DNA of 64,000 nucleotides, taken from positions 18,778,173 through 18,842,172 of the forward strand of contig OZ017798.1 in NCBI GenBank assembly GCA_963969395.1, read 5' to 3'. The stretch comes from Pseudoscleropodium purum (Eukaryota; Streptophyta; Bryopsida; Hypnales; Brachytheciaceae). Positions 2,390-64,000 of this stretch are shown piece by piece (within the stretch, counting starts at the first letter, position 1; each line of letters opens with the position of its first letter). The notes under the pieces were generated by a model that was not told the DNA's origin, made no database searches, and saw nothing but the letters and a program-made list of their open reading frames with translations. The position numbers and the translations under genes are program-made.

Positions 2390-2750
2390 CATCAAACCTT
2401 TAGGGGAGCCAACCCATTTCCAACCACTTAAGCAATTACGGACATCTAGGGTGCAAATTTTGTGAGTGCAAATTTTTCCCCTTGTATAGAAATAGAGTTT
2501 GGAAGAATTACATAATTTTTCAGAATTTTTTAACTCAAAATATAATTATTATAAAAAATTTAGCCAAAGTGTCCTATACAACTTATGCTAGTCATGTAGG
2601 TTGTTCTATTTCCAACCATAGGTTGCTTGCAAATCAACCAAGGGCTAATTGCAATATTGAGATTCTTGCAACCAATCATGATGCACACTACAACTACTTT
2701 AGGAACCATGCCACAACTTCACAAAAATTGAATAGGCTATAGGTTTGAAA
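2390..2750 (+). repeat. Dispersed repeat, AT-rich decayed copy (sister at 28350-28745)
   Basis: Collinear with 28350-28745: the blocks cccatttccaac-acttaagcaatta, agaaatagagtttggaag, ttttcagaattttt and a closing AAATGGGGGGTGAT occur in the same order. This copy is clearly more AT-rich, and many differences are C-to-T or G-to-A relative to the 28-kb copy. No coding potential is seen, and the repeat class is unknown. Confidence 0.7.
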
Positions 2751-14559: not shown

Positions 14560-14880
14560 CAACAAAATAGCCCCCTAGTCAACTATGCCATTGACCTGAA
14601 ACTACCATCATCATTATGTATACATTTCCAAAATCATTGTGCATGTATGTTGAAAAAACAATTTTAGAACATCTATAAAAATAAAAAATAAAAAAAAACT
14701 TTAATTCTTCATAGTTTTTGCATACGATATCCAAATGTCAAGTTATTTCGTGCGTTGGAACCTCTTCTCACTTCCCAACAAGAAGAAATGAAAATCTGAC
14801 CAGTCTACTAATTTGACCAATCTAGGTACGGTAGTCAAAAGTGGCGCTTTGGGGGCGTACCTTCCGTACCCATCCGTGTA
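14560..14880 (+). repeat. Dispersed repeat copy (related copy at 21215-21500, partial at ~19225-19290)
   Basis: Shared ordered blocks with 21215-21500 include tgacctgaaactaccat / tgaccttaaaccgccat, tagtttttgcatac / taacttttgcatac, cttcccaacaagaa and gaaaatctgaccaatct, ending in an AAAAGTGGC-like block and a gtacct-like block. No coding potential is seen. It lies just upstream of the host-gene interval. Confidence 0.65.
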
Positions 14881-15605
14881 TATTCCAAAACATGCAAATT
14901 AAACTAATTCACGTTCATCAAAGTCCAATCCCGCATCTTCGAATTTGCTTACCGAACTTACATCAGCAACTTCCATGCTTAAGGCGGCCCCAAAAGAACA
15001 GAAAAGATGTAATTTTCTACAAATCAGCTGCACCCAAATCACAATCTAGAAAATATAATACCCCATTCAAAATATGCAACAAGAAGCGCATCACTGTTTG
15101 TTCTAAACTACTTACAGCTAATATATATTGTGTCCATGGCGGTGCACACTGTTGTCTAGCTGCATGACGACAGCAATCAGGTTTGTTAATTTGCAAGGAC
15201 AGCGGTGGCGATGGCGAGCACCGTGACATGAAGATTCAAATCCATTGCCTCTGATAAGTTACAGAAAATCCTCTGACAGTCCCCGCACTTACGTCCGCAA
15301 CTTCCGCTGGCGTAACTGCCATTAGAAACAACAGAAACTCGCGCATGCAGAAACTCACGCAGAAACTGAAGTTTTGATTTTCAGAAATTCACTAGAAGCA
15401 TCGATCGATGCAGTCATGAAAAGATAATAAATTCCAAACTGAGAAGCTGCTTCGAATTCTCAAGCAAATTAGTGCAGCATATATAAAGTCTCCATGGCCT
15501 GGCTTCGAAATCACAAACTGTACTCTATTTGAACGCGAACAAGCTCTGCATGAATTAGAGGTTCATTTGGGTTTCTGGGTAGATTTGGATTGAGTGTGGT
15601 TGGCG

Positions 15606-16271
15606 ATGGCGTCCGAGCATTACGACTTGGAGGAAACTATCCGAGCTCGCCACTCGACTCGGCAGTTCCTGTCGACGCCTGTGCCGCGCAAATTGCTCAT
15701 GGAAGCGCTCTCTCTTGCGAAGTGCGCGCCGTCGAATTCCAATATCCAGCCATGGCGCACTGTTATCGCGGACGGCGCCCGTCGCGACAGGCTTAGGGAA
15801 GCGCTTGTTGCCGAGGTCAAGCGCGTGCCGCCCGTGGATACCGTGCTGCCGGAGGAGTTCCATCATTACCGGCAGGAGCTCGGGGCCGCGTTGTATGGCG
15901 TCTTGGGGATCAGGCGGGAGGATAAAGAGGCGCGGGCGGCGGCTGCGCTTCGGAATTGGGAGTTTTTCGGGGCGCCTCTCGTGGCCTTTGTGTGTATTCA
16001 TCAGGATTTAGGAAGAGAGGATTCGATGAGCGTGGGAATGTATGTGCAGACGCTGCTGCTTGCACTTACTGCTCGTGGAATTGGCAGCTGCTGTGAGGTT
16101 TCCTTGGCGGCTTATCCCGATGTTGTTAGAAAAGAGCTCGGCATTGCGCCGGAGTTGGCTATCATTTGTGGCGTGTCCATCGGGTACACTGATGAGGCCT
16201 TCGCGGCAAATCATCTGTATGTGGAACGCGCGCCGGTGGAGCATAATGTTATCATTCTTGATTCCGTTTGA
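15606..16271 (+). CDS. Nitroreductase-family FMN oxidoreductase, 221 aa, single exon
   Basis: Complete intronless frame starting at ATG 15606 (MASEHYDLEETI); an in-frame GTG four codons upstream is unlikely to be used. The N-terminus has the nitroreductase FMN-phosphate-binding pattern RARHSTRQF and the APSNSNIQPW segment. The C-terminal half has LLLALTARGIGSCCEVSL followed by ICGVSIGY, as in NfsA/NfsB- and PnbA-like enzymes that use NAD(P)H and FMN to reduce nitro or quinone compounds. Length fits the family (~200-225 aa). No targeting peptide is evident, so a cytosolic location is inferred. The gene is GC-rich and intronless within AT-rich DNA, which makes acquisition by horizontal transfer conceivable but unproven. 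The substrate cannot be predicted. Confidence 0.88.
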   Translation: MASEHYDLEETIRARHSTRQFLSTPVPRKLLMEALSLAKCAPSNSNIQPWRTVIADGARRDRLREALVAEVKRVPPVDTVLPEEFHHYRQELGAALYGVLGIRREDKEARAAAALRNWEFFGAPLVAFVCIHQDLGREDSMSVGMYVQTLLLALTARGIGSCCEVSLAAYPDVVRKELGIAPELAIICGVSIGYTDEAFAANHLYVERAPVEHNVIILDSV

Positions 16272-40615: not shown

Positions 40616-43600
40616 TTAGGTCATAGTAGATTCGGTTGCAGAATCATTGTTTGCAGAAGACTTAGAAGTCTCTCTATCTTCCACAGCACTAACATCTAAA
40701 TACTCTAACACATTTAAAGCATAAGTGTCTCGCCGCTTCTTTGGTTCTGAGCAACCAAACTCTACAAATGCCGATGCCAATTGCTTTGCATACACTGGCA
40801 AATCAAAAGACTTTTCTGGACTCAAAATTAGTCTTCTTTTGCGCAATGTTGTATTTGAGAACATCACTCCATGGGATCTGCAAAAACAAATTCAAATTTG
40901 TTTAAATCATAAACACTAGAAACAAAATATTCACATTGAACATAAACCTCTGGAAACTTACTTACTAGTGTTTTTCTTCCGAGCAAAACTAAAGACCTCC
41001 ACTTCCATTGCATCAAGATCTTGAGTAGTGTCTTCTTCTTCCTCCTCTTCTTCTTCTGTTGTCTCTTCCTGTTCAATTGTCTTCCTCATAGGCAGCAACA
41101 TTGCGTTGAAAATGGCATCATCTTTCTCCAAAGCCACAACATGGCGACCTGTACCCCGACATGTTGTAATTGATGCACCTAACAATAAACACATGCAATT
41201 CATTAATAAAATGTAGAGCTAGGATTATAATAAATGAAAATAATATTAGTTGAAATTAATCTTACCAGTTGCTCCAGTGTTATCAAGAACAATGTCTCCT
41301 TCGCTAGTTGTTCCTTCAATTATGAATTGAAAAAGCCTTGCGTCTTTCTCACGAGGACCACGCCATGGTACACTTCCGTTCATCATCATGTTGTCAATGG
41401 TGGTGTAGTTGATCAATGTATCGTCACGTTCAAGATCTACTTTGGCCTTCTTCATTGCTTCAGTCAACCTGAACTTGAACTGTGACTTGCGTCTCTTGTC
41501 AAGCTTCTTCACTAGCAACGTGATTCCAAACTTCATTGTCTGCATACATTTAATTCAGAAAATCATCAATAAAAATAATATAATCAATATACCAAAATAA
41601 TTAAACAACGATACAATCGAAACACATTCATACCGTATTTGCTGGATTCACGTCCGAAGTCAAGTGCATGCGATTGATTCCCAACCACTCTTTAAACTTA
41701 AAAAATAGATACATCTGGGTCAAACCCACTACCACGCCCCTTGCCTTTGCACTCCAAGAATGAAAAATGACAAAACAACCATTGTCTTGCAAATGCTTTG
41801 TTGCAAACACAATTGCCTGCTCAATCTCCTTAAACTCCTTGTCAAAGTTCCAGTGCGGCACATGGTTTGCTGGAACGGACACTTCTGGAACAGGGAGGTT
41901 TTCTTGAAGGTCAAACAAAATGAGATCCACTCCAGCCTTCTTGCTCATTTCGCCATTGAACATGCGACTGCTACCATCAGACAACTACACACAGAAGATC
42001 TATAAGTGATTTCATATTATAAAAATAATGAATGCATGCAATATGTTCAAATTCTGGAATGGCAAAATTTCAAAAACAAAAAACACACCTTCATTAAGAA
42101 CTCCATCACTTCTTCATAGCATGATCCATTGCCCTTGCCTTCATTTTTCATCACATCCACAATGGAATTGTTTAGGATCAACTCCTCCGTGTTCACCTCC
42201 TGGTCATCTTCTATGACAATCACTTGGGTGCCTTGTATGACCATCTCCTCAGTGAGCTCCTGTAAGACAGCCTTTCTCTTCACACCGCTACGTGATCCAG
42301 ACTCTATCTGTGATTCTTGGTCCACTGTAGAAGACCCTCGCACTTGATTTCCACCCTCCAGTTTCTTCTTCCCTTTCCCTTTATCCTTCCTTTCCTTCTC
42401 TGCCTCCTTCTCCTTCTCAGCCAACTTTGCTATGCGCTCTACTTCCCTTTTTTCTTTGTTAGCCTTCATTTCTTCCTCCTTTTTCTTCTTCTTTTCGTCT
42501 GCAATCGTTCTTCGTGCAATAGCTTTCCTCTTTTGGGCATCGGGAAGGTCTGCAAACTCGGGCACCTCTACATCAATCACACCTAGGCCATCAAATGATT
42601 TACGAAATGCAACCTCTGAGAAGTGGGTGTAGTCCACTGGGCACTCCAAGTACCACCCGCCACCGGTCAAATTAGCTGTAGTAAACATTCGGAGCTGAGT
42701 GGGTGTAAACATGCAGTCTTTTGAACTCCGATCCAACCAAGATGAAAGGAAAGGAGGTAGAGAGCCTCGTAATATAGCACCCTTTGGAACAAGCTCAAGC
42801 TTGAAGTACCTACAATGTGAAGACAATTCTAAGTCAACGCCTTAAGAGAAACATACATGAATCACAAAATATTTTGTCTTGTCTTCAATCAACTTCAACA
42901 TTTATAAATGTACTTAGAACTCAAAAAATACATGTCATGAAGTACTCTAAAAATTACATTGAACAATATTTAACCGAAAGTTGGAGTACTAGGAGATAGT
43001 GTCCATACCCCTGTTGGGTCGGACAAGGGTATTGAAGGTCCTTCCCAATACTCCAACTTCTGGTTCACTCTGTCAATATTGTCTCTTTATTTATTTATTT
43101 CCAAAATTTAAAAAAAAATTACATATCTTGCAATAAGGAACCAAGAAAAAATTGATCTAAATCATTTTTCCCATTTACAATTTCATTTAGGAAAAATAGA
43201 AAAGAAATGTTAATTTCCCTCGCAATACCAAAAACAGGGGTAGGCCCAAGGAATCGTAGCACCCCTGTCGGATCCAACAGGGGTATTGGGGCTCCCTTCC
43301 AATACTCCCACTTTTGATTTTCCAAGAGATATTTTAATTTTATTTTACTTTTAAAAGCTAATTTAAAGAAACAACAAATTCTAATGAACTTCTCATTTTT
43401 AGCATTTCATTCAAATTGAAAGCACTCACCTAAATAGAACCCTTCGAACAGCTTGGTCAGATCCCTCGCGACTTGAAAATGATTCGTGCTTCTTAAAGTA
43501 GTTTGGTCCCTTTAAAACTGGACCAAATGCATTATCCCATATTTTCTTCCTCCACCCCTCAACGTACTCCGATAGAGTTTCCGGTTGAAGGGGCACGTCC

Positions 43601-45403
43601 ATGTTGATGTCAGGCTTGTCTTTTGCCACTACGTTGTCAAAATATTGTTGTGCACCATCTTCAAGCTGTATTTGACATGGCAATTAACTTTCTCATCCCA
43701 AAAATGCAACTTTCAATTAATCAAAAAAGGAGATCAATTTAAATACAATAAAGAATATGCATTCCAAATTATTGAATATTGTAAGAACATTTTATATAAT
43801 GAATGATCTTACCCCGGCCCACCAAACAACTTTATGCAAAAAAGCCGAGAGTCTATCTTCTGAAACAGGGGACGGTGGAAACTTCAATGACTCCTTTGAA
43901 ATATTAGAAGAATTCCACCACCTCAGCACTTTCATCTTGTGAGCTGCTGACATGGTACTTGTTGCAATCATCTGGAGCTTTTCCAAAGTCATTTCCGGCA
44001 CCTCATTCCAAACCCAATGTTTCTCCACCTGCAACATGATAGTAGATTGTTCAATATATATCTTTTTTTACCAAACATCAAAATAAAATAAAAAATTCAC
44101 TTAAATTTCTAAGTATACCTCTTCAAGGAACTTTGATCCAAGGGCCGGATCTGCAACTACCAACAACTTTCCCATCTTCACACGTAACTTTGAGGTTTTT
44201 TCTTTTGCTGCAGATCTCATAGCGTCTGCAACTCCGCAGTCAGTTCTTTCCTCTGCCGGTGTCACATCAATGTAACACTGAGCAACGGTGTCTGCAGCTT
44301 GAGAGATTTCATGCTGCAAATGGAATTCATCATAAGAAATTTATAAGCCATAGAACTAAAAATCTAGTTAACTCTTTTCTTTTTCCTTTCTAAAAATACA
44401 ATTTAGTAGGCAAAATAAAACTCACCCTAAAATTGAATGATGTAAAAACATCCATAGGCATCGAGTACCACGCCTTTCTACCCACTTGAAATACGCACTG
44501 CTTCCTTTCAGAGGGCTTGAGCATCTCTAAGATCTTCAACTCCATTCTTCCATATTTTTGCACACGGTACAACGTGTGTACTAAGTTTGTCTTCACATGT
44601 GAATCTTCGGTGGACCTGAAACATGAAATTCAACTTTAGAATTTATACAATCATATGCTACTTTCCATCCTAAACAATTTAGAATAATGTGAGATATGAA
44701 TTTTGAAATCAATCCAAATTGCAAGATGAAGTACTTACTTGTTAATTTCATGCATCACCTGCATTGTCATCTGCACTCTTCCTTTTGTTTCCAGCACAAT
44801 GCAGTCGACTGAGATGTGCCAATTAATGTCCAAAGGGTACTTTCTTCGAATATGGCTCATCCAAGTAATTTGTTGGTGATTGCCATCACATATGAAAAAC
44901 TTCATGTTCTTCATGAAATGCAACTCTGGCTTTGTTTCTAGAAATGCAACAAATTCTTCATTCCTTTGTTGCCAAAAAGGGCCCCATCTTACAACCTCTT
45001 CCCTAGTGAATTCTGCACTCTCGCCGGCCTCATTGGTTGTTGACACATAAAACGATGCTGTTCCATCTCGGTAGCCATGTGCAAAGTCCTGCTCAAGTTT
45101 CTGTAAATCGGAGGAAAGAGTAGGCCTCACCATTGGCATCGGCACTAGCCTGCAAAGTGGAATCTTGAAACGCGATAGATTCTCTGGCTTCAACCTTAGC
45201 AAAGTTATTGTGGCCACAGAATCCACCTTGTGAAATCGGCGGAGTTCATCTTCAAGAAGTTCTTTATCTTCCTCCATCTCTATCTCTTCCTGTATTTCTT
45301 CTGCCTCTTCTTCTCCTTCTATCTCTGGCTGTTGTGTGTCATCCGTTGCGGGTGTGACTTGGTGTTGCACATTTTCTGACAAAATGAGTGGTGAATCTTG
45401 TCC
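40616..45403 (-). CDS. ParB/sulfiredoxin-like domain fused to a beta-class DNA amino-methyltransferase-like domain, 1108 codons in ten exons (5' end open)
   Basis: Exons 45403-44739, 44615-44426, 44313-44119, 44028-43813, 43665-43430, 42809-42089, 41984-41634, 41539-41266, 41178-40962 and 40877-40616 join in phase with GT-AG borders and no internal stop. Residues count from the acceptor at 45403, so at least one upstream exon exists. Residues 25-55 are acidic. Residues ~80-230 carry IPLCRLVPMPMVRP, DFAHGYRDGT, FFICDGNHQQITWM and WHISVDCIVLETKG, a ParB/Srx-like fold with a DGNH core. A helical middle (230-570) precedes a K/E-rich coiled stretch. Residues ~757-980 read as an N6_N4-type methyltransferase in beta order: VDLILFDLQENL at the motif IV position, then REKDARLFQFIIEG and IVLDNTGATG (motifs X/I), then GRHVVALEKD. 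Motif IV lacks the expected (D/N/S)PP(Y/F/W), so activity is doubtful. Phage-like ParB-methylase fusions are known in bacteria. DNA binding or modification is inferred. Confidence 0.72.
42972..43065. mobile_element. Palindrome-core MITE copy 1 (in methyltransferase-gene intron)
   Basis: Termini AACCGAAAGTTGGAGTACT and AATACTCCAACTTCTGGTT are imperfect inverted repeats. The centre carries TGTTGGGTCGGACA (43012-43025), a decayed form of TGTCGGNTCCGACA, flanked by ATACCCC and AAGGGTAT. About 94 bp; it lies in the 43429-42810 intron. Confidence 0.75.
43224..43322. mobile_element. Palindrome-core MITE copy 2 (same intron as copy 1)
   Basis: Left end AATACCAAAAACAGGGGTA and right end AATACTCCCACTTTTGATTT are inverted and diverged. 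The core TGTCGGATCCAACA (43266-43279) is flanked by CACCCC and GGGGTATT. About 99 bp. Confidence 0.7.
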
Positions 45404-45704
45404 CTGCAAAGAAAATGCACACAAAAATAATGAGACATACAATCAGTATTATTAGAATTTACATCATGAAGATCTCAAAAAATGTACTCATTAAAGAATT
45501 CTAAAAACACTACTATACAAAATTAGAGTACATAAAAGTGCTAGGTATATGTGAATGCAATTTATGAATACCATGAAATTATTTATTTCCAATGGATTTT
45601 ATAGTATACATCAAATATGTTTGTAGATAACTGAAAAACGAAGCAATACCATATATGCACAAATTAAAACCAACTAGTTTTATATATCCTCTTAATTACA
45701 TTTT

Positions 45705-46187
45705 TCACTCAATGTCCACATCCTCATGATAGTTGGAACATTGGTGAATGATGACCACTAGGTTGTACCTTAACTGGTGAAGTCCTGAGCAATCACAATG
45801 TATAGGACCCCACGGACTACATACAGATGGGGATGAATCTACAGTAGAGCTCAATGAGTTGGGATCACTACACTCTGTGTCAGAGCTCTCATCTGAGAAT
45901 ACTGGCACTCTAGGATCTCTTGGCTTTGGGAAACTAATACGACTTCCCTTGTCTTTCTTATACTCATCTGCAGCACGATCACAAGCATCCATGATATCAT
46001 AAAAGCTTACCACATCAACATCTTCATCCTGTTCTAAGTCATCGGATTCGATAACAGGAAGAAGCCCAGGAGTCTGAGGAACTCGATCATCCTCAATTTC
46101 TTGATCCACAACTTTAGTTTGTGGACCAGAAAAAAATACTTGTTCTTTGTTCATATCTGTGGAGTCCATTTGCAAAGGCAATGACCA
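45705..46187 (-). CDS. Acidic exon-like frame, probable terminal exon upstream of or alternative to the methyltransferase gene
   Basis: Open frame of 160 codons with a TAG acceptor at 46188-46190 (reading on as WSLPLQMDSTDMNKEQ) and a stop at 45705. It is rich in D/E/S with PRDPRVPVFSDESSDTECSD and has no domain I recognise. The 5' border is phase 0, matching the phase-0 donor of the exon at 50813, so the two could form one transcript ending here. A weak internal donor (AG|GTACAA, ~45769) would be out of phase with the exon starting at 45403. It may be a separate small protein, an alternative 3' end of the same transcription unit, or TE-derived. Confidence 0.4.
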   Translation of the reverse strand, partial: WSLPLQMDSTDMNKEQVFFSGPQTKVVDQEIEDDRVPQTPGLLPVIESDDLEQDEDVDVVSFYDIMDACDRAADEYKKDKGSRISFPKPRDPRVPVFSDESSDTECSDPNSLSSTVDSSPSVCSPWGPIHCDCSGLHQLRYNLVVIIHQCSNYHEDVDIE

Positions 46188-48004: not shown

Positions 48005-48673
48005 GTAGGATGTCGATGGCTCCTGAAATTAATTTCAAAAGTACCTGGCTAAACGCCAAAGCCACGCTGGAGCAACTCTGAAGCCACGCTGCAGCAACTT
48101 AGAAGCCAAGTCGCAGCAACACCGCAGCAACTCACAAGGACCAGGACGTCTCGGAGGTCCAAAACAAGGGGTGCTCTGAGCTCCCCAAAGGACCTCTGTT
48201 GGTTCTGACAAAGGCCTTGTAGGAAGCTCGACGTACTCGGGGTAGGATGTCGATGGCTCCCGAAATTAATTTCAAAAGTACCTGGCTAAACGCCAAAGCC
48301 ACGCTGTAGCAACTCAGAAGCCAAGTCGCAGCAACACCGTAGCAACTCACGAGGACCAAGACGTCTCGGAGGTCCAAAACAAGGGGTGCCCTGAGCTCCC
48401 TGAAGGACCTCTGTCGGTTCCGACAAAGGCCTTGTAGGAAGCTCGACGTACTCGGGGTAGGATGTCGATGGCTCCCGAAATTAATTTCAAAAGTACCTGG
48501 CTAAACGCTAAAGCCACGCTACAGCAACTCAGAAGCCAAGTCGCAGCAACACCGCAGCAACTCACGAGGACCAGGACGTCTCGGAGGTCCAAAACAAGGG
48601 GTGCCCTGAGCTTCCCGAAGGACCCCTATTGATTCCAACGAAGGCCTTGCAGGAAGCTCGACGTACTCGGGGT
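48005..48673. repeat. 215-bp tandem repeat, three units, each containing the TGTCGGNTCCGACA palindrome
   Basis: Units begin with GTAGGATGTCGATGGCTCC at 48005, 48242 and 48457. The last period is exactly 215. The first unit is 22 bases longer because an internal AGCCACGCTG-CAGCAACT block is duplicated. Each unit ends with GGAAGCTCGACGTACTCGGG. The palindrome is TGTTGGTTCTGACA (48197-48210), TGTCGGTTCCGACA (48413-48426) and a decayed form at 48628-48641. Two 81-codon frames on the minus strand are shadows of the repeat. Confidence 0.9.
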
Positions 48674-49199
48674 TTCAATTCACGAGGAGGTACTGCAGCG
48701 AAATCTCAGCCGCAACCAAGAACCAAACATGGAGCTTTCTAGTTGATGACAGGTTTGAGCAAATCACGAGCCCCAAGACATGAAGCTGACTGACCAAGCA
48801 AGTGCATTCGAAACCTCACATGCAGATTCACGTGTTGATTGAACTGGTTCCGAGCATCCACAGCCTCGTCTTCACGCGAGCGACTTCTTGTGCTCCGTCC
48901 TTGTTGCTCCGTCCTTGAGCGCTGCCAGGTCGCCATTACAAAAGATTAGATTTCGCAAGACAATTGCTTGGAAGTATGAGAATAGGGAAGCAATGGTGAT
49001 TAAGAATCCCGTCGCTCACAGTTAGTAGAGCAGTTCGGAGAACTCATGCTTTGAGCAGGTGTTCACTCTTCCCGATGAGTGATTCCAGTGGCGCGGGAGA
49101 AGATTTTTAAAAGATTTCCAATTTTGGTAGCTAAACTAGTGGGACGTAGCTTTCAGTGCGGGGAGCCAGGTAAAGTTGCAACGTGACGCAGGAAGCATT

Positions 49200-51814: not shown

Positions 51815-54800
51815 ATGGCTTGCATTAGAGTAGACGGTCATGTAGTTCCGCTTGTGTTTTCTTTGGCGAATGGCAATCTGGCTAGAGTATCCAGTCATCT
51901 TCTACATGTACGTTTCAGATTTGATGAGTCCTCTATCTATATAGAAGAAGAGAGGAAGTCTGAATGTGGTAGAAGCGTAGAATTTGTTCCTATTGAGAAG
52001 AGTGAAGACAAGGATGGAGTTTGTTGGTTCCTCCCTATAGGAAACTATAGAGCATACGGTCTTCCTATGGCTATTCTAAATGCATCTATAGAGATGGTTA
52101 GCCGCCAGTCCGATAATTCAACAGTGGATATGCCATATGTCACAAACGTAGTTTCTCCTAGCCCTCTTCGACAGGAACTTCCAATTCCTAGTTCAAGTAC
52201 TTTTCTACGTGCTGTAAAGATTGAGAAATTGGACCCTATTATCGAGTTTTCAAGTGATTCGGAAGGACAGTCACCTAGCTTGAGTGTCCGTGAAAAACCG
52301 CAATGTGTCAAAAACGCTCTTGGTAGTCATGATAGTAATCATTCAGTTTCAAACATCCAAGGCAATAGTCCCATACAATCTCTGTTATCTCCTCCTCCGT
52401 TGTATCCACCTACACTTGATCGGAGAAGCATAATGGAATGCTTGAGGAATTTGAAGAGTATGCATCGGTCTAAGAACGAATTGTCCACAATGGATGTAAA
52501 TGCCATCAAGCACCATGAAGTTGGGTTTCTTCCATCATTCTTCAATGGAAACGTCATCTTTGAGTTGCCTCCATGCCACACGTGGCCATCTTCGTCGGCT
52601 ACCGGAAATTTGGAGGGGATGGACAAACGTTATGATGGACATGCGTGGTACAAGGTACAAACTACCAATATTCACAACTCCGACAGATTGAGATTCCGGA
52701 AGTCCTATTGCGCTGGTCACCTTGTTTGTATGAATCTCGATTGTGAATATCTAAAGAGAGCTAATAAGCACAATGAGACGGAGTGGAGTGGATATACAGT
52801 GTCCCCTTTTCTAATAGAAGACAAGCCTCCCAAGGATTGTACGTTAGTTTGCAAACTATGTAGACAAAATCCAACATGTCTAAAGCAATGCGACGCTAGA
52901 ATATACTATTGTTATAGCGAGATTCCTAAAATGACAAGGGCCGCAATTCATCTTGGAGATCACTCTCACCCAGTAGCAAAAGGCATGTATAGAGATTCTG
53001 TAGAGAAGATTTGTGAACTCATTGCAGAGCAAGTGGCAAAAACTCCTACTGCCACAAACTCAGCCATTGCTCTCTCTACAAGCAAAGATTTTCTCACGAC
53101 CTATTTGTTCCATAACGGAGAGGGAGAGAAAGTGATGTTGAAGGGAGAAGAGCTAGAAGAGGTGATGGATCGGTTTCAATACTTGAGTAGTCCCAACATT
53201 AGAAATGTGATATCGTCATTTCGCTCAAACAACCGTGGAGGCATCATCGACAACATAATGACTATGAAGAAAGAGTCGAAGTTCGAATTCATCCACGACA
53301 ATGTCTTTCCAGGCCAAAGAAAAGAGAAGGTATTTATCTTCAAGATGCTCACAGAAGGACCTGGAAGCGGTGTGGACTTGGTGCAGCGCATGCAATCCGG
53401 AGGAAATCTTCAAAATGCGTGGATGATGTTCGACCACGTCAAGCGTGTAAAGGAATGGACAACAATGGCTTGCCACGTGTATGATCCAGATTACAAGAAG
53501 GTCATGACAATTGCAACCTGTGATATGCAATCAGAAGATACTGAGGTTCAGTTGCTCTTTTGGAAGTGCTTGAATACTGTAATGTTGCGACACGGAGTTG
53601 AGAATCCAAATTTTAAAGGATTTATGGCTGATAGCGCTATGGTGAATTGGAATGCCGTACGAATTGTATATAGAAGTGGTTTTGCAGATCAGAAAATGGA
53701 GAATAGGGAAAGAACATGCTTATTGCATTGGAGTACTTCTCTCCAGAAGCACATGCAGAAGTACATTAAGGAAGCGTTTCAGCAACAACACAATTTACTT
53801 TGTAAACAGTACAAAGATGCAAAATCAATGGAGGAAGCAGAAACAAAATACCTGGCAATTCGGTCCTGGTGGTTATCATCGGGAGCAACAATAGAAGATG
53901 CACTTCACCACTTAGAACATTGGCTTGCTTTTTGGCATTTCCGATATAGGCAATGGGGAGGATTCATGCAATTGGTAAGTCAATTTGATTGGAGTATAAA
54001 AATTTTCAAATCCGTTTTAAAATTTTTTTGGTGCATTCAAAGCAATTTTCTATTGAAATTAATATTTCTATGATTTGATTTGAATGCATGGAATTTCCTA
54101 AATCTTTGTTTTAAAAAACATAGGAATGTCCCAAATTGATGAGAAATTGGAATTTTAGGAAGGACTTCAAATACACTCGTGAGATAGGAATTATGTATAT
54201 AAGGTTCACGGTTTACTTCAATATCTCCAATTTTTTTTTAACATTTTTTCGTCCAAAAAATTGGGAAAGAAACAGTCCATGAACCAAAAGTAGGGGTAGG
54301 GGTAGGGACCTTCTATACCCCTGTCGGGTCCGACAAGGGTATGTAGGGTCCCCCTCAATACCCCTACTTTTGGTTCATGTTCAAGGAACATTTAATTAAA
54401 AAATTAAGAAATAAATAATAAGTAAATTTGAAGGTTGTTGTGCAAACCCAGAATCCCTACTTTTGAAATAAAAGGTTTATTTGTAGGCTATATAAAATAT
54501 ATATTGAATAGTGGTTATTTGAATTTGAATTTTTGTTTGGGTTTGTTGAAAGTTTTCATTTGGGTTTGTTGAAAGTTTTCATTTTATATTTTAAGCTTTG
54601 AAAAGTCACTTTACTGGAAAAGATCTTGCAAAATCCCGTTTGACCAAACACGGATATTATTGAGATCTTCTTACTACTCTCACTTTTGATTCATGTATTT
54701 ATAAATGTTTATTTATATCTCAAATGGATTTCACGATGGTATAAAGCATTGAATTAGCAAAGTCTAATGTTTGTGCAACTTCATTTTCAGGATTTAAGTT

Positions 54801-56166: not shown

Positions 56167-56843
56167 TAGAAGACGCTAGCTGTAAGTACTTCAATGGCTT
56201 GTGAAATGAATCCATTTTATACGATTGAATATATTTTCAATTAATTGAAAAAAATTTCATTTTCTCACAAAAAGTGATCATTTCGTCTAAACTCTTCTTT
56301 CCACTTGTAGTTCAAATTCCATTGGAATGAATTCAATGAAAATAGTCACTATGTTTATATTTGTAAGTTCAAGATTTATTTGTCAATTTTATTAGAAATA
56401 TGCCATGTATTCATTGAAGTTGATTTTCTTTATCTTGATTGCACTTCATTAAATAGGAATATTGTAGCCAAAGGTCAAAGAGATTTAAATATGGTGGGCC
56501 GGGTTTGAAACCCACAAGGTTTCAATTAATTCCAGTGGGTATAATATAACCCTAGTTAACAATATATTCACTATTTTGGGAGTTTTCCAAGGAAATGAGA
56601 GTCTTTATTCTAGAACCTTGCAACTTTTGACGCGCATAAGTGACAAACAAAGAGGCCTCTAGGCCTTCAATCACCTAGGAATCCAATGCCATGACATTCA
56701 AAACAAGTGCGCATATAAAGATTTCAGAAATACCATGCATTTATGAGGCACGTATTACTATTAATAGAATTACTTCAATACTTACAAACGAAATTCTAGG
56801 ATGAATCCATCCAAAATGTTTTTTTTACATCTAGAATCAAGAC
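56167..56843. other. Spacer between transposase tail and the next minus-strand gene
   Basis: AT-rich, no gene seen. If the transposase belongs to a discrete element, its right end should lie here or further right. I could not identify terminal inverted repeats or a 9-bp target duplication by eye. Confidence 0.4.
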
Positions 56844-57485
56844 CTAACAACTACGAGATGAATTCTTCATCTTCTCCAAGGCCTTCAGAATTTCCGGTCC
56901 GCAACTATACCCTCCCTTATCGATTGTCCCACACTGTCGAATGAATTCCCAGCTCTGTGCTCTTAACGACCTCTCCTCCCACGGGTCCCAAGTACGAGTC
57001 GACGAATGACTACCCGATGGCATAAGGACTTTCCTCTTTAGTCTTCCTACCTGAGTTTGAGCACGACAACGTGGGAGTGCGAGCGCAAGAACAGGGAGAG
57101 CATCATTTCTTGGATGTTGTCCAACAGGCACAGATTTCTTTACTTCTGGTGTGGATACCAAGTAATTAGCATCTTCATACAGCTTCCTTTGCGTCCCTTT
57201 CTCCAAAACAGTTGGCGACATTGACTTCTCCCGAACCTCCCTAGAACGCAACGGAGACGGTGAGCACGACACGGGCAGGCGCACCTTCTTGTTGGGAGGA
57301 CTATTTACCACTCCGTCCTCAATGTTCTTGACGGAGAAGTCCATGGACGAATTCAGCGTAGGCGCCGAGCAAAGGAAATTTCCCGTACTGAGAATAACGT
57401 ACTATCCATAGTCAAGGATGGAATCCTCCGACGCTTGACAAGGCATGTCCGCATTGAGCCCAGTTTCGCTCGGGATATTTTGCAT
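56844..57485 (-). pseudogene. Proline/arginine-rich nuclear-type protein fragment with one in-frame stop
   Basis: A TTAG acceptor (57486-57489) is followed directly by ATG 57485 (MQNIPSETGLNADMPCQASE). The frame meets TAG at 57402-57404 (DYG-stop-YVIL) and then stays open from 57401 to TGA 56844 (SSMDFSVKNIEDGVVNSPPN, later WDPWEERSLRAQSWEFIRQC). There is no recognised domain; SP/TP and basic clusters suggest a nuclear protein. An alternative frame through the first part gives a basic peptide ending at 57353. It lies downstream of the ParB-HAD gene on the same strand and may be a separate gene or a further exon of it. The single stop resembles those in the neighbour. Confidence 0.4.
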
Positions 57486-57635
57486 CTAACAGAAATAGAA
57501 ACAAAATTAGCATGAGAAACACTCCACAGTTGCATCACCCAAAATCACTACAGACACCTAAGAGCATGCTGCTTCTAGTAACACATGAACAAAGGGATTG
57601 TGGACTACTGAAACGAAGATTATAACATGCTACAC

Positions 57636-57656
57636 ATTAGCGCGACCCGCGCTGAA
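57636..57656. repeat. 21-bp palindromic element, copy 1
   Basis: Core TTAGCGCGACCCGCGCTGA. It lies between the HAD exon and the frame at 57485. Arms pair except at the centre and one end position. Confidence 0.8.
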
Positions 57657-57748
57657 GTGCAACTGCCGCATACATATGACCTGATAACAGCTGCACATGC
57701 AGCATAATCGCCGAAATAAAAATGAGTTGCATACCTCGGGAAGCAACA

Positions 57749-58916
57749 CTAAATAAGCACACTAGGTGACCCCCGGACCACTGCCATCAGTTTGTCGTAC
57801 TCTCGACGACCCCTCTCCTCGCACAGCATTTTTTTTCCAATCTTCCGTTTTACATTTTGGCGGAAGGACTTGAGCCCGACGTCCCGGCTGCCGTGCAATT
57901 GTCGGAACCAGGGAAGTAGGACCCCTAGAAGAAACGTGTCCCTGTCACCATTCCCTCGATTACTCCATGAATCCACTAATATGACATTCTCTGGGCTATT
58001 CATGATATGCTTGCGAGGACTGTCATCGACTATGACTGTATTATCCAGCGAGAAGGATCCCTGGAAGCCAGCAGTGAGGAATTCAACATTTTTGAGGAAC
58101 AAGTCCTTATTGGATCCGGGTTCCTTATAAGTGGTCATCCTTCCGAACTTATCCTTGCACTTGACAGTCTTACATGAGTCCTGCCCAAGAACTAGGAAGG
58201 GGAGGCTTCCTTCTCTGAAAAGGTATGCACAGATTTCCTCCGTGGTAGACTTTTTCATGGAGCTCCACACGGAGATGATTGCTATTTTTTCTAACTCCTT
58301 CAAGAAGTGAGCGCAATCTGGACGGACGTAGACGGCTTTGGGCCCAACTACTGCAGCCACTACGGCAGAGTGAGGCTCTGAGTCCCTATTAAATTGCAAC
58401 CTTGACCCCTGTGACTTCCAATCCTCGCAGAGGCACAGAACGCCATTGAGGTCTAGGACGACGTTAATCCACTTGTCTGCCACCCCCGACCTCAATGACC
58501 GGCGCACTCCCTTGGATTCCTCCTCACGAGCTAGTGCAGGATCGGATTCCTGACAAGAAACGTAGGAGTTTGAGGCCAGTTACGATCGTGAAACTGGCCG
58601 AGATGGGGAACCACGTAAAATGAACCAGGAAAGTATGCCACAGGACCGGCAAAACCATGACTGACTGTGTCTACTGAAGTCATGAGAAGATGAGAGAACC
58701 GTCATACCTTCGGTACTTGAGAATGTGAAGGCTTCTCATGTCCTTCACGACGCGTTAGCGAATGATCCCGCAATGCAATGTCATCGCCGATTTCCGAAGA
58801 CACGGGATGATTCAAAGGTTCAGCGTCCTCAATCGGGAGGGATGATTCCGCTGGCAACTGAGAGTGATCGATAGGATACTCAGACTCTGGAAGCGATTCT
58901 CTAAGATTTGGAAGGC
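57749..58916 (-). CDS. FCP1/NIF-type HAD phosphatase module (two exons), C-terminal part of the ParB-HAD gene
   Basis: Exons 58916-58708 and 58549-57749 join in phase 0 (GTATGA donor, GTCAG acceptor) and end at TAG 57749. HAD motifs are visible: WINVVLDLNGVLCL (motif I, nucleophile Asp; the second Asp of DxD is replaced by Asn), AIISVWSSM (motif II), DKFGRMTTYKEPGSNKDLFL (motif III Lys region) and NTVIVDDSPRK (motif IV, DD). This matches the FCP1/NLI-interacting-factor phosphatase fold, and the DLNG variant also occurs in plant FCP1-like proteins. These ~337 codons carry no internal stop. The upstream exon border (1-base phase) matches the exon ending at 59153, so I favour its being the C-terminus of one long protein. 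It could instead be an independent gene. Confidence 0.7.
58574..58599. repeat. 26-bp palindrome of different sequence in intron 4
   Basis: GGCCAGTT-ACGATCGT-GAAACTGGCC: outer arms GGCCAGTT/AACTGGCC and inner ACGATCGT are self-complementary. It is the only intron of the ParB-HAD gene lacking the GCGCG-type element, and it carries this one instead. Confidence 0.7.
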
Positions 58917-59093
58917 CTGCGATTTTCAAGTGGAGGCAAGAATACATGTAAGTGATATATTACACTGTCGCAAACAACAGATTTACAATTTGGAAAATGC
59001 GTCCACTTTGGTTGACGCTGTTCAGACTAGAAGTACATCAAAAATGAGCACTGTATCTGAAATGAAAACTACAGGTACTCTTCTACGATACAG

Positions 59094-59114
59094 ATTAGCG
59101 CGATCCGTGCTAAA
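59094..59114. repeat. 21-bp palindromic element, copy 2
   Basis: Core TTAGCGCGATCCGTGCTAA, in intron 3 of the ParB-HAD gene. One arm position is mutated (GCGCG versus CGTGC). Confidence 0.75.
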
Positions 59115-60266
59115 ACTACAATATAAAACACTAAGTTTTCATTGGGCAGAACCTGTTGGTGGATCCTCGGTGGGCAGGGCATCACTTCCAGGCGCCACCT
59201 CGGATGTACCCATGGGCAGGTTCTGCGCAAGGCCTATCAATGACGTCTCCCCCTGCGCTTCTGCTCTGGATTCGAGGTGCTTCTCCTCTGCTCCGGCTGC
59301 CTCAAGATTCGTTGAAGAAGACGGGTAGGCTACATCACCCTCGCACGGGGGAGGGGGTGTCGGCGTGGGCGCTTCCACAGGAAGAGGCGCAGCATCCTTG
59401 AGCGGATTGGAAGGACTGGAGGCATTGCTGATATTGGAACCAGATGGCTGTCCCTGCAATTGCAAAATTGGCTCTCCAGAGGCAGGCGGCAGCGTCGCAA
59501 CGGGCTCGATACCGATCTTCTTGATCAATATTTGGAGCATGTCCCTGTTCTGTTGGGAGAGCTCCCTGTTTGCCTTCGACTCCTCTCGCATCCACGCCTG
59601 ATTACTCTTGTGGATTTCTATGTTTGCTAGCCTTTCCTTTGCATTGTCCGCCCTCATCTGCGCCAGAGCCAGCTCAGTCTGTTGCTGCACCAACTCGGTC
59701 TGTCTCTGCATGTTGGCTAGGGAGATAGCATTCTGTTGCTGGATCTCCACTAGTTGCTTAGCAATACTGGTGATCGTATCCCGCTTCCTCTTCTTCTCCG
59801 GCCGTCCCGATGCAATTGGAGTCTACGGCGTTTGAGAGAGAGGAGGCAACATAGAGCTTGCAGACGACCCTGGAATATCTGTGGACGGACGACTGGTTGG
59901 TGTAGTCATCTCGTCCAGTCCCTCAATCCCGTCGTCTTCAAGCTCTTCTTCTTCTTCTTCTTCTTCCTCCTCCTCCTCGGAATCATACAGGACTTCATGA
60001 GAGACATGAGTCTGCCTATTCCTCTGCTGACTCAATGGGAAATTTTAAGCGGACCTCAGCTTCCTCCTAGAGGAGGAAGGGACATCGGCAGAGTGGGTGG
60101 AGTAGCTGCTGTCCAAGAAGTCCGCAATGTCTAAAGTCATTGCCTTGGTACAGATATCTTCCCACCATTGCGAATCCTCCGATGTACCCGTGACATAAAC
60201 GTCCACCCCACTCATCTGTCAAAGACAAACAAAGGAGTTATGACCGTCATATCTTGCAACATGCAT

Positions 60267-60287
60267 TTCAGCGCGACCCGCGCTGAA
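60267..60287. repeat. 21-bp palindromic element, copy 3
   Basis: Core TCAGCGCGACCCGCGCTGA, in intron 2. Confidence 0.85.
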
Positions 60288-60355
60288 CTGACATAACACA
60301 TACACACAACAAATAAAAATACATATCACAGAATAAATGAGATCAGGAATTGCTA

Positions 60356-60376
60356 TTCAGAGCGACTCGCGCTAAA
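60356..60376. repeat. 21-bp palindromic element, copy 4
   Basis: Core TCAGAGCGACTCGCGCTAA, in intron 2, 89 bases from copy 3. Arms partly mismatched. Confidence 0.8.
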
Positions 60377-61833
60377 CTGAGACTGCGGTGCTCACCACCG
60401 AAGCGCAAGTCAACTTCCCCCCTGTGAAGGCAGAGAAGACTGCCGTGCCCGCCCTTGCGAATGCCTTCACCAGCCAGAGATAGAATTCCATACGCAGTTC
60501 CGTGTTATAAATTCTATACTCTAGCTCACTGTAAGCATGGGCCTTCATATAGCGAGCTGTTTCGGGACAGTTGAACTCCGACGGAATGGTGACTTGATTG
60601 GTGTTCTCAGGGTGCTGCAAGAACATAAGGAACACCTTCTTTGGTGTCTTCGCGGCCGCAAGATCCCCAATCCTGTCATTTTTTCCTGCGCAGTACAAGG
60701 AGTAGTGAACCAAGTATTTGTTCAACTCCTTGTTAGACTCCACGAAGATCGTCACTTGGGCCTCCTCTTTCTCGTCTCCACATATGAAGAGCCACGACTT
60801 GACTTCTTCGAGTGCGGGCTTCTTGCTCTTCTGAAGTGAAGACAGAACTTCAAAGAAAAAAGGATTCTCCATCGTAGAGCTCTCCTTCTTCTCCACCCCT
60901 AGCAACGACCGGAAGTCTATAACCCCGAGAGATAAACGATTACTTGTCTCCGCAGTCCAGGACTTCACCGGCCAGTCCTTGTACTAGTTTCGGGCCACCT
61001 CATATACCCGATAGTATGCCTTTGCAGATGGCCTTTCGAATTTGGCTTTGTGGTCAAGAAATGATTTAAAAAAATCATATGCGTCTTGGGACAACTCAGA
61101 GCACGTCTTATGCTTCGCATGCGTGCTCTTCGCTTTGCCAAAATAGGCTTCACCAGGTCTCTCAAGGAGGATGTCCATTGTCGCGCTAGAGAAAAGGCGC
61201 TCCTTCTTAAACGCCTTCCAATTCTCGCTGATCACCTCGTTCCCTGAGTTGAGAAGGCCAAGGCTGGGATCAATCGCGTGGAGCTCCTTGATGACGAGAT
61301 TCTTCCGCTTACGATGCTCTACCCACTCCTTGGTGCTATAACAATCATCCTGCACTGTAGAGATTGCCTTCACTGTCACCTTAGGATATGAATGCCTGCG
61401 CTTTCCACCCGTTTGATTTAGAAGGTGTTTCGCAAGCTTGGATAGTTCTTCATAGCTGAGATTGCCCAAGTGCTTGAAGAACTCCCGATTCAGCAGACAA
61501 TTCTCGGGGCTCCAGCCCGCCCGTGCGTTAAACATCTTATCCGTGTCGGGGTTAATTAGTTCCCCATGCGCAGCTGCAGAGATTACTTCACTCCACAATT
61601 TATAGACGTCATCAGGTGCAGTAATCAGCCGCAACTCATTCGTCAGCTTCAGCTTCTCCTCCCTCCCCTTAGTCTTGGAAATTTTCAAGCTCTTCACAAC
61701 CTCGATCAGTGAAAATCTTACGTACATGGCCTTCTCAAACGCCTACAAAATATCATGAAAATCAATTATATTATGCACTTGATCCACATATTGAGAGATT
61801 GCAATATACCATAATCAACTCAAGGAGGAACAC

Positions 61834-61854
61834 TTCAGCGCAACTCGCGCTAAA
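61834..61854. repeat. 21-bp palindromic element, copy 5
   Basis: Core TCAGCGCAACTCGCGCTAA, in intron 1. Confidence 0.8.
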
Positions 61855-63391
61855 CTGCATACCTGGAAAATTTCGCGGTTCTTCTTGTTCTCAACAGTCC
61901 GCCGACTGATGGTAACAGCTCCCACAGATTTTGCTGGAGTGGGATTCTTCAGTCTTCCCATTGCCTCCCATACCGATCAAGCTCCTAAAATATTAGTCGC
62001 CCACGACGGCTGCACTGCCACAAAGTGATTGGTTCGATTGTAGTAGGCAGAGATACATCTGAGCGTCTCCACATCCTTCGACCAAACAACGAAGCAGTTC
62101 CACCTACGGAAGTGCTCTCTTTCTTCTGCGTTCACCTTGTTCCTCTCGTCCAGCATAAATTTGCTAGCTGCAACACTGTGCTGTCCGTTTATAATATAGA
62201 ATTGGCCATTCTCAATATCCTCCCAGTTCTTGGGCATTGTGTCGTGCCCAACAGGCATAACGCAAAGTGTCTGCTTCGTGCTTTTGTCGGGGATATTCAG
62301 CAGATAATTGACCATATCTTCGACAATGTTGTCCTGCTTGGAGCGTATATTGAAAGTTGCCGGTGGATCTACCAATTGGGAGACGTCAATCACTTTCTTT
62401 TCCCCAATCTTGAAGATGTATGCGTCCTCGCAGGTCGTCCAAAATTTCTTATAGACCTGGCTCACTTGCTCGTAGTTAGGTTTCTTCTCTGTTGCCCGTG
62501 AGTGAGGAACATTGGACATCTCGTCCGCATAGCTCCCTTCAGCGACCTCGGACACTTCAGAGTCTCGAGTGACCGGTTTCCGTTCTGATGAAGATGGAGC
62601 ATCCTTCTTGCCTTTCTTTTGGGGAGTTTTCTGTACACTTTTCCTCTGCCCCCGGCTGGTACCTGACTGTTGACCCACGTTCAGTTTTGAACCTTGACTT
62701 ACGCCTTGGTTCATTATCTCCCTTGATACAGTGCGTGGTTGGTTCATTTCATTCTGCTTTTCCATCTTCCCCTTCAGCATGTAGAAGTCGTTGAATAGGA
62801 GCCGGATTTTGCTACACAACTTTTTCCAGGACAACGGAGTTCCGTTCGCGTTCTTCCACTCGTTATTGTCCAATTTCTTCTCCAGCTCTTTCACTTCGTC
62901 TCGGTATGGAGTTGGCTCGAGGCTGCTCAGGAATGGACTTAAGTTGAAGGGAATTAACACCGAGTCGAGGCAGATAGCAAAGTGGTATTGGTCCCTTCTT
63001 GACTCGCCGGGTATCGTTGTCATACACTTGATTTTGATCATTGGGTAGGCGTCAGCCTCGATGTCTTTGATCTTCTCGTGGAAAGAGAGTTGTAGGAAGC
63101 ACTGCGATTTCTTGAATTTGTAGGAAAAGCAGAACTGGTTGATGAAAGGGATCGTGAATAAACTCCATGCTTCTACTTCTTCTAGATCTCAAAAGACCCA
63201 GTACTCCCCTTCAATCAAGTGGTCTTCAGCAGCCTTGTCATCATCTAAGAACTGTACATCGGATCTCTTGAAGTACATCTCGAGCGCCTCTAGTTGGTTT
63301 TCCATTCTGCAACGTAAGAAAAATCCGGACTTCAGTCAGACCGGCAAAACACAAACCGAAGTCTCTACAGTTCTTGAAAATAATGATGCAT

Positions 63392-63412
63392 TTCAGCGCG
63401 ACTCGCGCTGAA
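63392..63412. repeat. 21-bp palindromic element, copy 6 (perfect)
   Basis: Core TCAGCGCGACTCGCGCTGA with 10-bp perfect arms around a single central base. It lies 87 bases upstream of the proposed start codon. Confidence 0.9.
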
Positions 63413-63628
63413 ATGACATTTATAGCGTTCCATTATGGTCTTACTGTTACAGGCTTTCTGTAGATATTATAGAAATTTTATAGTGGATGAATTTACGTAC
63501 ATATTTTTGAGTCTTTCATTCAACCACTGTTTTCTGTGGCGGCGACTGTCAGATTCATATTTGTTTTTGGTGACACTGAGAGTAATTTCATCCGCTAGAA
63601 TAACTTTCATCATTTTCTCCAATTGCAT

Positions 63629-63649
63629 ATTAGCGCGACTCGCGCTGAA
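63629..63649. repeat. 21-bp palindromic element, copy 7
   Basis: Core TTAGCGCGACTCGCGCTGA. Confidence 0.85.
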
Positions 63650-63731
63650 CTGCTTTATACGTCGTTATCGCTGTTTATTATTTGGTTTCTGAAACTTGCT
63701 TTGCTTTGCTTTTAAGATCATAGAATGTCGT

Positions 63732-63752
63732 TTCAGAGCGGCTCGCTCTGAA
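63732..63752. repeat. 21-bp palindromic element, copy 8 (covariant arms)
   Basis: Core TCAGAGCGGCTCGCTCTGA: the arm is AGAGCG instead of AGCGCG, and the opposite arm changes to CGCTCT, which preserves pairing. Confidence 0.85.
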
Positions 63753-63957
63753 TTGTATCCTATTTGTATGCGGATGGACTTCTATAGTAATGTATTTCTT
63801 GGAATCATTTTTGTTCTTCTACTTGAGAATGAATTGGTAATGTAAAGCGTTTAGTGCACAATTAATAATTCGTCATATTCTATTTCTAGAGAATTGGATA
63901 GGAAATGGAATGAGTTTTATGAATATATTATGTCGTAGGAATGGTGATGATTGACAG

Positions 63958-63978
63958 TTTAGCGCGAGTCGCGCTAAA
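63958..63978. repeat. 21-bp palindromic element, copy 9 (perfect)
   Basis: Core TTAGCGCGAGTCGCGCTAA, extended by T and A to 10-bp perfect arms. The outer pair differs from copy 6 (T-A instead of C-G), again with symmetry kept. Confidence 0.9.
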
Positions 63979-64000
63979 CTGCCTTACTGTTTAGTTTTTT

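Follow-up and report, generated by a model that had tools for sequence, protein, structure and literature searches.

Palindromic sites in a high-copy moss transposon

The window, the whole 64-kb stretch of moss DNA analyzed here, holds a gene encoding a ParB-fold domain, a methyltransferase-fold domain, and a NIF/HAD phosphatase, together with nine palindromic 21-mers against a chance expectation of about 0.01 (Table 1). The gene model is a GT-AG splice reading guided by the exon ends of homologs. Five of the nine sites are intronic, spread over four of the five introns, and four lie upstream of the ATG; the first-pass annotation, which had placed every site outside the exons and had left one intron empty, agrees with this model, the empty intron being 58552–58706. 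The 19-mer of that annotation, searched across the window with up to 3 mismatches, gave 15 strand-matches that represent eight of the nine sites (expected 0.01), the site at 63732 being missed because it carries more mismatches than 3. Scanned with a matrix, the 64 kb yielded all nine with scores of 26.7–35.8, and the next best place scored 8.3; the first-pass annotation, too, had seen no further copy in the window. The center base is C on the plus strand for eight sites and on the minus strand for the site at 63958. In several sites the dyad extends to ∼27–29 bp, with perfect dyads of up to 29 bp.

Table 1. Coordinates of the palindromic sites, coding exons, and transposon portion in the window
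Feature	Position	Strand	Basis
Left 7.4 kb of 18,942-bp DNA transposon	56558..64000	.	left end AACAATATATTCACT... at 56558
Palindromic site, intron 5	57636..57656	+	19-mer search, matrix scan
Coding exon 5: NIF/FCP1-type HAD phosphatase	57732..58551	-	PF03031, E 1e-18
Palindromic site, intron 3	59094..59114	+	19-mer search, matrix scan
Coding exon 3: low-complexity region; 5′ splice site approximate	59144..60215	-	
Palindromic site, intron 2	60267..60287	+	19-mer search, matrix scan
Palindromic site, intron 2	60356..60376	+	19-mer search, matrix scan
Coding exon 2: helical basic region, then predicted beta-class N6A/N4C DNA-methyltransferase fold with degenerate motifs	60396..61742	-	
Palindromic site, intron 1, 8 nt past 5′ splice site; second-family counterpart altered in both arms	61834..61854	+	
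Coding exon 1: N-terminal domain (weak PH/Tfb1-like match) and predicted ParB/sulfiredoxin-fold domain with GQHS motif	61863..63305	-	GT-AG reading and homolog ends
Palindromic site, upstream of ATG	63392..63412	+	19-mer search, matrix scan
Palindromic site, upstream of ATG	63629..63649	+	19-mer search, matrix scan
Palindromic site, upstream of ATG, AGAGCG...CGCTCT	63732..63752	+	matrix scan
Palindromic site, upstream of ATG, opposite orientation	63958..63978	-	19-mer search, matrix scan

All nine sites are internal to an 18.9-kb high-copy DNA transposon whose right end falls beyond the window (coordinate 75499 on the window scale). The left edge is common to ten copies, including that in the window, and an exact right edge was found in nine; aligned pieces of the copies are ∼95–99% identical. 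Shared exact ends, imperfect terminal inverted repeats, and a 4-bp target duplication in eight of the nine bounded copies identify a cut-and-paste DNA transposon, bearing out the suggestion that the palindromes are transposon-internal repeats. Each bounded copy carries 16–18 sites in two clusters, one belonging to the ParB-fold/methyltransferase-fold/NIF/HAD gene (its introns and 5′ region) and the other upstream of an ORF encoding a DUF7869 protein, with seven sites just 5′ of that ORF. The sites occur in both orientations, upstream of both genes and in noncoding parts; the left 1,078 bp and right 3.4 kb of the element contain none.

Proteins encoded by the element

The window copy of the gene is broken by two in-frame stops in exon 1, one in exon 2, and a disrupted reading frame in exon 3. 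The exon 1 domain is predicted to adopt the ParB N-domain fold and exon 2 the beta-class DNA N6A/N4C methyltransferase fold. No significant Pfam match was found for these exons, and a PDB sequence search returned no match for the transposase or ParB profile and one match, at E = 1, for the exon 2 profile. ParB proteins carry a GERRxR-type signature at the position that, in our reading of positional equivalence, corresponds to the GQHS motif; among 42 homologs this signature is absent and the position reads NGQHSV, with N and Q invariant and G, H, S, V, A, and S conserved in at least 90%. Beta-class methyltransferases have the catalytic motif [DSN]PP[YFW], which is absent from exon 2 in 52 homologs, where the majority reading is LGxxDFRxxPG, with D invariant and R present in at least 90%; from these residues, the domain is probably not an active methylase. 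The exon 5 phosphatase has 77 homologs at E ≤ 1e-10. For the large second ORF, Pfam gave DUF7869 (PF25273; E 1.4e-42) as the one significant match, and the product of this ORF is likely the transposase.

Searched by tblastn against 50,697 phage records, exon 2 had no match at E ≤ 1, and no viral relatives were found in viral contigs, a set that may leave out records of the window's own genome. In the papers searched there was no account of ParB with a methyltransferase in Physcomitrella transposable elements, of DUF7869, of a Sola1 transposase superfamily with 4-bp duplications, or of a ParB-like plant-genome transposon with palindromic sites.

Distribution and divergence of site types

The genome was scanned for the palindrome and for its association with the gene, as the first-pass annotation had proposed. 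Among the matches listed, 95 of 100 exact window-type sites have a ParB-exon match no more than 15 kb away, although such neighborhoods make up 1% of the genome. For the site type of the window, this rejects a dispersed microelement with no connection to these genes. The second site type (CT-type) is more loosely distributed: only 23 of 50 places among the matches listed have a listed ParB match within 25 kb, and one CT-type cluster (C46) sits on another inverted-repeat sequence, which shows no similarity to the element. AT- and GT-type sites, taken from homologs of other sources, gave 2 one-mismatch places in the genome against 1 for the control. Two matches to the palindrome in bacterial and archaeal genomes, both bacterial, were put down to chance.

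A second element family in the same genome has a ParB exon 56% identical to that of the window, and its site is altered in both arms at corresponding positions (GCGCGA to GCTCGA). Comparison of the introns of homologous copies, also proposed earlier, showed that homologous ParB genes retain a site in the same intron. Between the two elements, seven site positions agree within 40 nt (13 of 2000) and five within 20 nt (66 of 2000), an agreement that is weaker at tight tolerance and in which several CT sites are paired with one and the same counterpart. Site divergence was read at the DNA level in the second family and by back-translation only in families beyond it. Site classes cluster on the protein tree, with the motif class for tails having been defined after the tails were inspected; P0059 and P0053 bear other site classes though they fall inside the clade of the window. 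A motif-free test of back-translated palindromes (25 of 40 perfect against 9.6 shuffled; 37 against 34.8 at ≥9/10) is too weak because of codon freedom. The transposase may co-diverge as well, and might itself be the protein that binds.

Candidate binders and known systems

The explanation that we prefer, to which we give about an even chance, is that the transposon encodes the protein that recognizes its palindromes, most likely the ParB-fold/methyltransferase-fold protein, and that this serves element-specific control. As a symmetric dimer, this protein would recognize a pair of inverted half-sites (CANTTYAGCGCGA) flanking one center base, and sites in noncoding parts of both large genes would let the trans-acting product find every family copy without constraining protein sequence. 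Binding would control element chromatin or transcription by countering silencing, perhaps with ParB-like loading and spreading. By analogy with VANC of Arabidopsis VANDALs, the sites probably serve element-specific regulation or anti-silencing.

Binding by the DUF7869 transposase at internal recognition sites for transposition is unlikely. Its gene is in the same element immediately behind the second site cluster, and subterminal repeats serve as transposase recognition sites in plant CACTA elements; however, the sites here are not subterminal, both end regions being empty, most of them belong to the other gene, in its introns and 5′ region, and homologous ParB genes retain one in the same intron. 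Binding by a transcription factor or chromatin protein of the host, at sites that act as enhancer or insulator and are exploited by the element, appears similarly improbable. Cis-regulatory sites typically lie in introns and 5′ regions, as these do, and some CT-type sites lie on sequence that shows no similarity to the element. Against this, the window-type sites listed are nearly confined to the neighborhood of the ParB gene, and two families in one nucleus differ in both site and element protein, so that one host factor is no explanation.

We consider it still less probable that a short palindromic repeat was multiplied in the element without function, although decay between copies is consistent with this. 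Among nine young copies, CpG differences on the gene side were 0.049 in sites, 0.054 in coding, and 0.046 in noncoding sequence, and on the transposase side 0.034, 0.038, and 0.044; at other positions the corresponding values were 0.0154, 0.0161, and 0.0226, and 0.0086, 0.0091, and 0.0145. Sites thus decay about like their surroundings, with no clear protection. A by-product is at odds with the restriction of sites to noncoding parts, their retention at corresponding introns with both arms changed in the 56% identical family, and the clustering of site classes on the protein tree.

Little probability attaches to RNA or cruciform DNA hairpins acting in splicing, small RNA production, or replication, as the long perfect dyads and the intronic position of over half of the window sites might suggest. 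Own-arm matches numbered 202 of 252 in the window copy against 195.0 ± 4.0 for permuted arms (p 0.058) and 204 against 196.9 in a second copy (p 0.054), at ±8 the arms match in 9 of 18 against 9.7 by permutation, and the base adjoining the center is A in 28 of 36 arms, though pairing there would be only across a one-base loop; both orientations, and sites upstream of both genes, also speak against hairpins. The symmetric changes described in the first-pass annotation are therefore not supported within the element (p ∼0.055) but are seen between families, where both arms are altered. Because arms within an element match little better than permuted arms, the pattern suggests two half-sites of a dimeric protein rather than a hairpin. 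Partition sites segregating an extrachromosomal form are very improbable: the predicted ParB fold and several dyads per element would fit, but the copies are integrated, most with target duplications, the sites are spread out without a single centromere-like cluster, and no ParA was recognized by eye among ORFs of at least 90 aa in two copies, with the annotation covering the element on either side of its middle 6.7 kb.

Returning to the element's own protein, a more elaborate and rather doubtful scheme would join the ParB-type protein, the probably inactive methyltransferase fold, and the CTD-type phosphatase in transposon self-recognition, loading on family-specific palindromes in the introns and 5′ regions of the element's own copies, spreading over these copies, and keeping them transcribable; protein and palindrome would diverge together, leaving each family to address only its own members. 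If true, sequence-specific self-recognition, known from VANC, would have arisen a second time through an apparently unrelated ParB-based protein; one genome would hold two natural protein–site pairs with specificities swappable by experiment, and a plant-nuclear ParB-fold protein with defined palindromic targets would bear on whether chromatin allows ParB-like spreading. Should the proposed function prove wrong, the data still suggest that a family of uncharacterized plant "hypothetical proteins," including Physcomitrium patens records, are transposon genes.

Sola, Ginger, and Chapaev are eukaryotic DNA transposons with 4-bp target duplications and terminal inverted repeats; the moss element resembles them in these two features, and its likely transposase bears DUF7869. 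Bacterial replicons carry several parS sites, each of 16 bp. With bacterial ParB–parS the element shares a ParB/Srx fold and several dyad-symmetric sites, and the earlier comparison to dimeric, parS-like sites fits the half-site-like arms and the joint divergence of site and protein; a role in partition is not supported, the moss site being a longer dyad (21–29 bp) of unrelated sequence, with NGQHSV instead of GERRxR, in an integrated, eukaryotic element with no ParA recognized among the ORFs screened. Bce_0392 is a prokaryotic ParB–adenine methylase fusion (PMC5512222), and such fusions likewise unite ParB-like and adenine-methylase-like domains in one gene; the moss gene differs in being intron-split and in its extra helical region, degenerate methylase motifs, and NIF phosphatase.

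Compared with VANDALs, the moss element encodes a ParB, methyltransferase-fold, and NIF protein beside its DUF7869 protein. VANDAL transposases are of the Mutator kind, and since the large second ORF gave no Mutator-like transposase match, the moss element is not classed as a VANC/VANDAL member. Motif binding and hypomethylation were demonstrated for VANC/VANDAL in Arabidopsis (PMC5735166, PMC10398659), and VANC21 has the nine-base motif YAGTATTAY, with targets often in tandem repeats (PMC5735166), whereas the moss site is a 27–29-bp dyad known here from sequence. Both transposons encode an extra protein beside other ORFs, as VANDALs do with VANC (PMC5735166, PMC10398659), and both carry short motifs in their own noncoding regions, which in VANDALs comprise introns and intergenic and terminal parts (PMC5735166). 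Related VANDAL families differ in protein and in target (PMC5735166, PMC10398659), as do the window's family and the one second family compared at the DNA level, in which motif and putative trans-factor have both diverged.

Palindromes in the window and the gene that carries them

The nine 21-bp dyads at 57636..63978, which the first-pass annotation had placed around the ParB gene (with predicted ParB and methyltransferase folds and a NIF/HAD phosphatase part), were confirmed at those positions. A 19-mer allowing up to three mismatches recovered eight of the nine, against an expectation of 0.01 in window shuffles. When a matrix built from the nine sites was run over the 64 kb, the lowest true score was 26.7 and the next 8.3, in agreement with the claim that the window holds no further copy. 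The sites do lie outside exons: five are in introns 1, 2, 3 and 5, and four are upstream of the ATG. Intron 4 is site-free and carries another inverted repeat at 58573-58601, GGCCAGTT...AACTGGCC, conserved in nine copies of the transposon described below except for one base each in copies E9 and E2. Exon boundaries are our own GT-AG reading, guided by homologues.

Exons of the ParB gene (window positions)
Feature	Position	Strand	Remarks
Exon 1	61863-63305	minus	GT-AG reading guided by homologues
Exon 2	60396-61742	minus	GT-AG reading guided by homologues
Exon 3		minus	between exon 2 and exon 4
Exon 4, small	58707-58916	minus	GT-AG reading guided by homologues
Exon 5, NIF/FCP1 phosphatase	57732-58551	minus	PF03031, E 1e-18
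Last exon		minus	after exon 5

The window's copy of the gene is broken: its long exon-1 ORF is bounded by two in-frame stops where homologues read on, and exon 2 has one in-frame stop. Several other copies have no stop within the matched part of exon 1, and exon 2 is open in one fetched copy. Homologues include the Physcomitrium patens records P0022, P0195 and P0220, from which we take the window to come from a moss. Another family member, P0095, is filed under "uncultured Leptolyngbya sp."; at a guess, this is plant sequence that probably ended up among cyanobacterial contigs by mistake.

A scan of the window for repeated dyads (arms of at least 8, at most one mismatch, at least six G or C) returned three families: the ParB-gene sites, one beside another ParB-like gene, and a weak two-member pair. 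The second ParB-like gene (42047-46187, minus strand) is putative, its DGNHQQ motif having been recognized by eye. Its own palindrome, CCCTGTCGGRTCCGACAGGG, gave seven strand-matches in the window (expected 0.00) at four sites, 43009, 43263, 46938 and 54319, which fall between the ORFs of that gene, upstream of it, and between the ORFs of a neighboring plus-strand gene. Gene and palindromes together could represent a second element, built to the plan of the transposon described below. Hairpin repeats of about 100 bp (AACCAAAAGTAGGGG... type) at 42972-43067, 43226-43321 and 54278-54379 look like miniature inverted-repeat elements, and the CCCTGTCGGRTCCGACAGGG family sits near their centre. The window, otherwise plant-like and repeat-rich, also contains a nitroreductase ORF without introns (15594-16271, plus strand; PF00881, E 1.1e-28) and a 215-bp unit that is present three times in tandem (48067-48711); identity with the first copy is 93% and 76% for the other two.

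A transposon-wide family of sites

Of the earlier suggestions, transposon-internal repeats stood, and the description of the palindromes as a feature of one gene gave way to a transposon-wide family. Ten element copies were viewed, the window's own among them; all share the left edge at window 56558 and nine share the right edge. By these edges the copy in the window is 18,942 bp long. The element is mobile, with imperfect inverted repeats at its ends (AAC..ATATTCA..TGGGAG) and a 4-bp target duplication in eight of the nine bounded copies, absent in E9; copy E6, split by nested insertions, was excluded from the counts. A second large ORF of 967 codons matches PF25273 (DUF7869; E 1.4e-42), to which Pfam assigns no function, and we infer that it is the transposase.

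Eighteen sites were counted in the window's copy of the element. Eleven occupy the introns and 5' region of the ParB gene (element coordinates 1079-7632), and seven lie upstream of the DUF7869 ORF (14334-15462); the interval 7.7-14.3 kb is empty, as are the exons of both genes in our model. Together the nine bounded copies contain 155 sites (16 to 18 per copy), and their flanks (71,329 bases) gave one match scoring above 12, a weak 13.4. In the 313-Mb genome, the pattern CAGCGCGACTCGCGCTRAA with up to three mismatches matched 759 times on the forward strand and 778 times on the reverse, and the reversed control 14 times; since a symmetric site may count on both strands, this amounts to somewhere from about 780 to 1537 distinct sites. 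The window-type palindromes listed for the genome keep close to ParB-exon matches, of which there are at least 103 (a lower bound, from 103 of 390 candidates scored): the zone of 15 kb on either side of these matches, 1.0% of the genome, takes in 95 of the 100 exact sites listed, and widening it to 25 kb takes in 98. One contig, C49, holds 29 of these listed matches, many with several stops; at a guess, C49 may be where old copies have accumulated, on a sex chromosome or one with little recombination.

The half-site CANTTYAGCGCGA, read towards the centre base, was derived from 36 arms of one copy. Symmetric arm changes, previously taken as a sign of maintained dyad symmetry, were not borne out within the element: arms matched their own partners little more than permuted ones in the window's copy (202 versus 195.0 ± 4.0, p 0.058) and in a second copy (204 versus 196.9, p 0.054), as expected of two separately read half-sites, whereas a selected hairpin should give more. 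In a comparison of nine young copies, the rate of decay was roughly the same for the sites as for the DNA around them, a result that speaks neither for nor against selection in the active lineage.

Divergence of site and protein

In many homologues the predicted protein continues past the exon-1 splice site. The motif TYAGxyCGANTCGy'x'CTRA (x, y complementary) occurs in these tails exactly in 22 of 59, with up to one mismatch in 36 and up to two in 40, against 0.08, 1.08 and 8.1 in shuffled tails, and earlier counts gave 21/55 for exon 1 (0.055 shuffled; none in exon parts) and 3/31 for exon 2 (0.025 shuffled); these numbers are descriptive, because the motif class was drawn up after the tails were viewed. 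Sites are of CG type in the window's clade and of AT, GT and CT types, named by their arm bases, elsewhere. Mapped onto a 32-row ParB tree, the classes need nine changes versus 17.7 with shuffled labels (0/200 as low), a result inflated by near copies, and the match is not strict because P0059 (CT) and P0053 (AA) lie inside the CG clade.

When one mismatch is allowed, the window's genome has the CT-type pattern at 79 places, against none for the control; the AT and GT types give two, against one. A 21.4-kb cluster on contig C44, again two-part, accounts for 18 of the 50 CT places listed. From the spacing of the CT sites, exon 1 there was predicted to lie between two of them. The 1,651-base stretch taken from this place codes for a ParB homologue with stops of its own, which shares 55.7% identity with the window's protein across 406 residues; TTAGCTCGAATCGAGCTGA lies some 40-50 nt past the exon end. 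Of the 10 sites on the gene side, nine have a window-family site position no more than 60 nt away (0/2000 random sets), seven within 40 nt (13/2000) and five within 20 nt (66/2000), some sharing one counterpart. Protein and site have diverged jointly in one pair of families. Two observations count against co-divergence: 27 of the 50 CT places listed are more than 25 kb from any of the at least 103 listed ParB matches, and a CT cluster on contig C46 sits in another sequence, whose inverted arms are 98% identical. These arms (C46:15875700-15876700 and 15880200-15881200) lie about 4 kb apart and have no blastn similarity to the window's element; they represent another element that shares the CT site type.

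Proposed mechanism and known systems

The palindromes themselves are secure, and the idea that they are binding sites is plausible. The mobile element, its sites, their placement and the predicted folds are established; the element's ParB-type protein would bind the sites as a dimer, and this binding may regulate or protect the element. A bacterial ParB-methylase fusion exists, Bce_0392, according to PMC5512222. The nearest working model for the sites is VANC, the Arabidopsis VANDAL anti-silencing protein, which, as described in PMC5735166, recognizes motifs in the non-coding DNA of its own VANDAL family (introns, intergenic and terminal regions) by binding them and removes methylation; related families have different targets. 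By its likely transposase (DUF7869, PF25273), the element does not belong among the VANDALs. We rate its sites as a transposon-wide family of self-marking sites, a variant of selfish self-recognition of a known sort.
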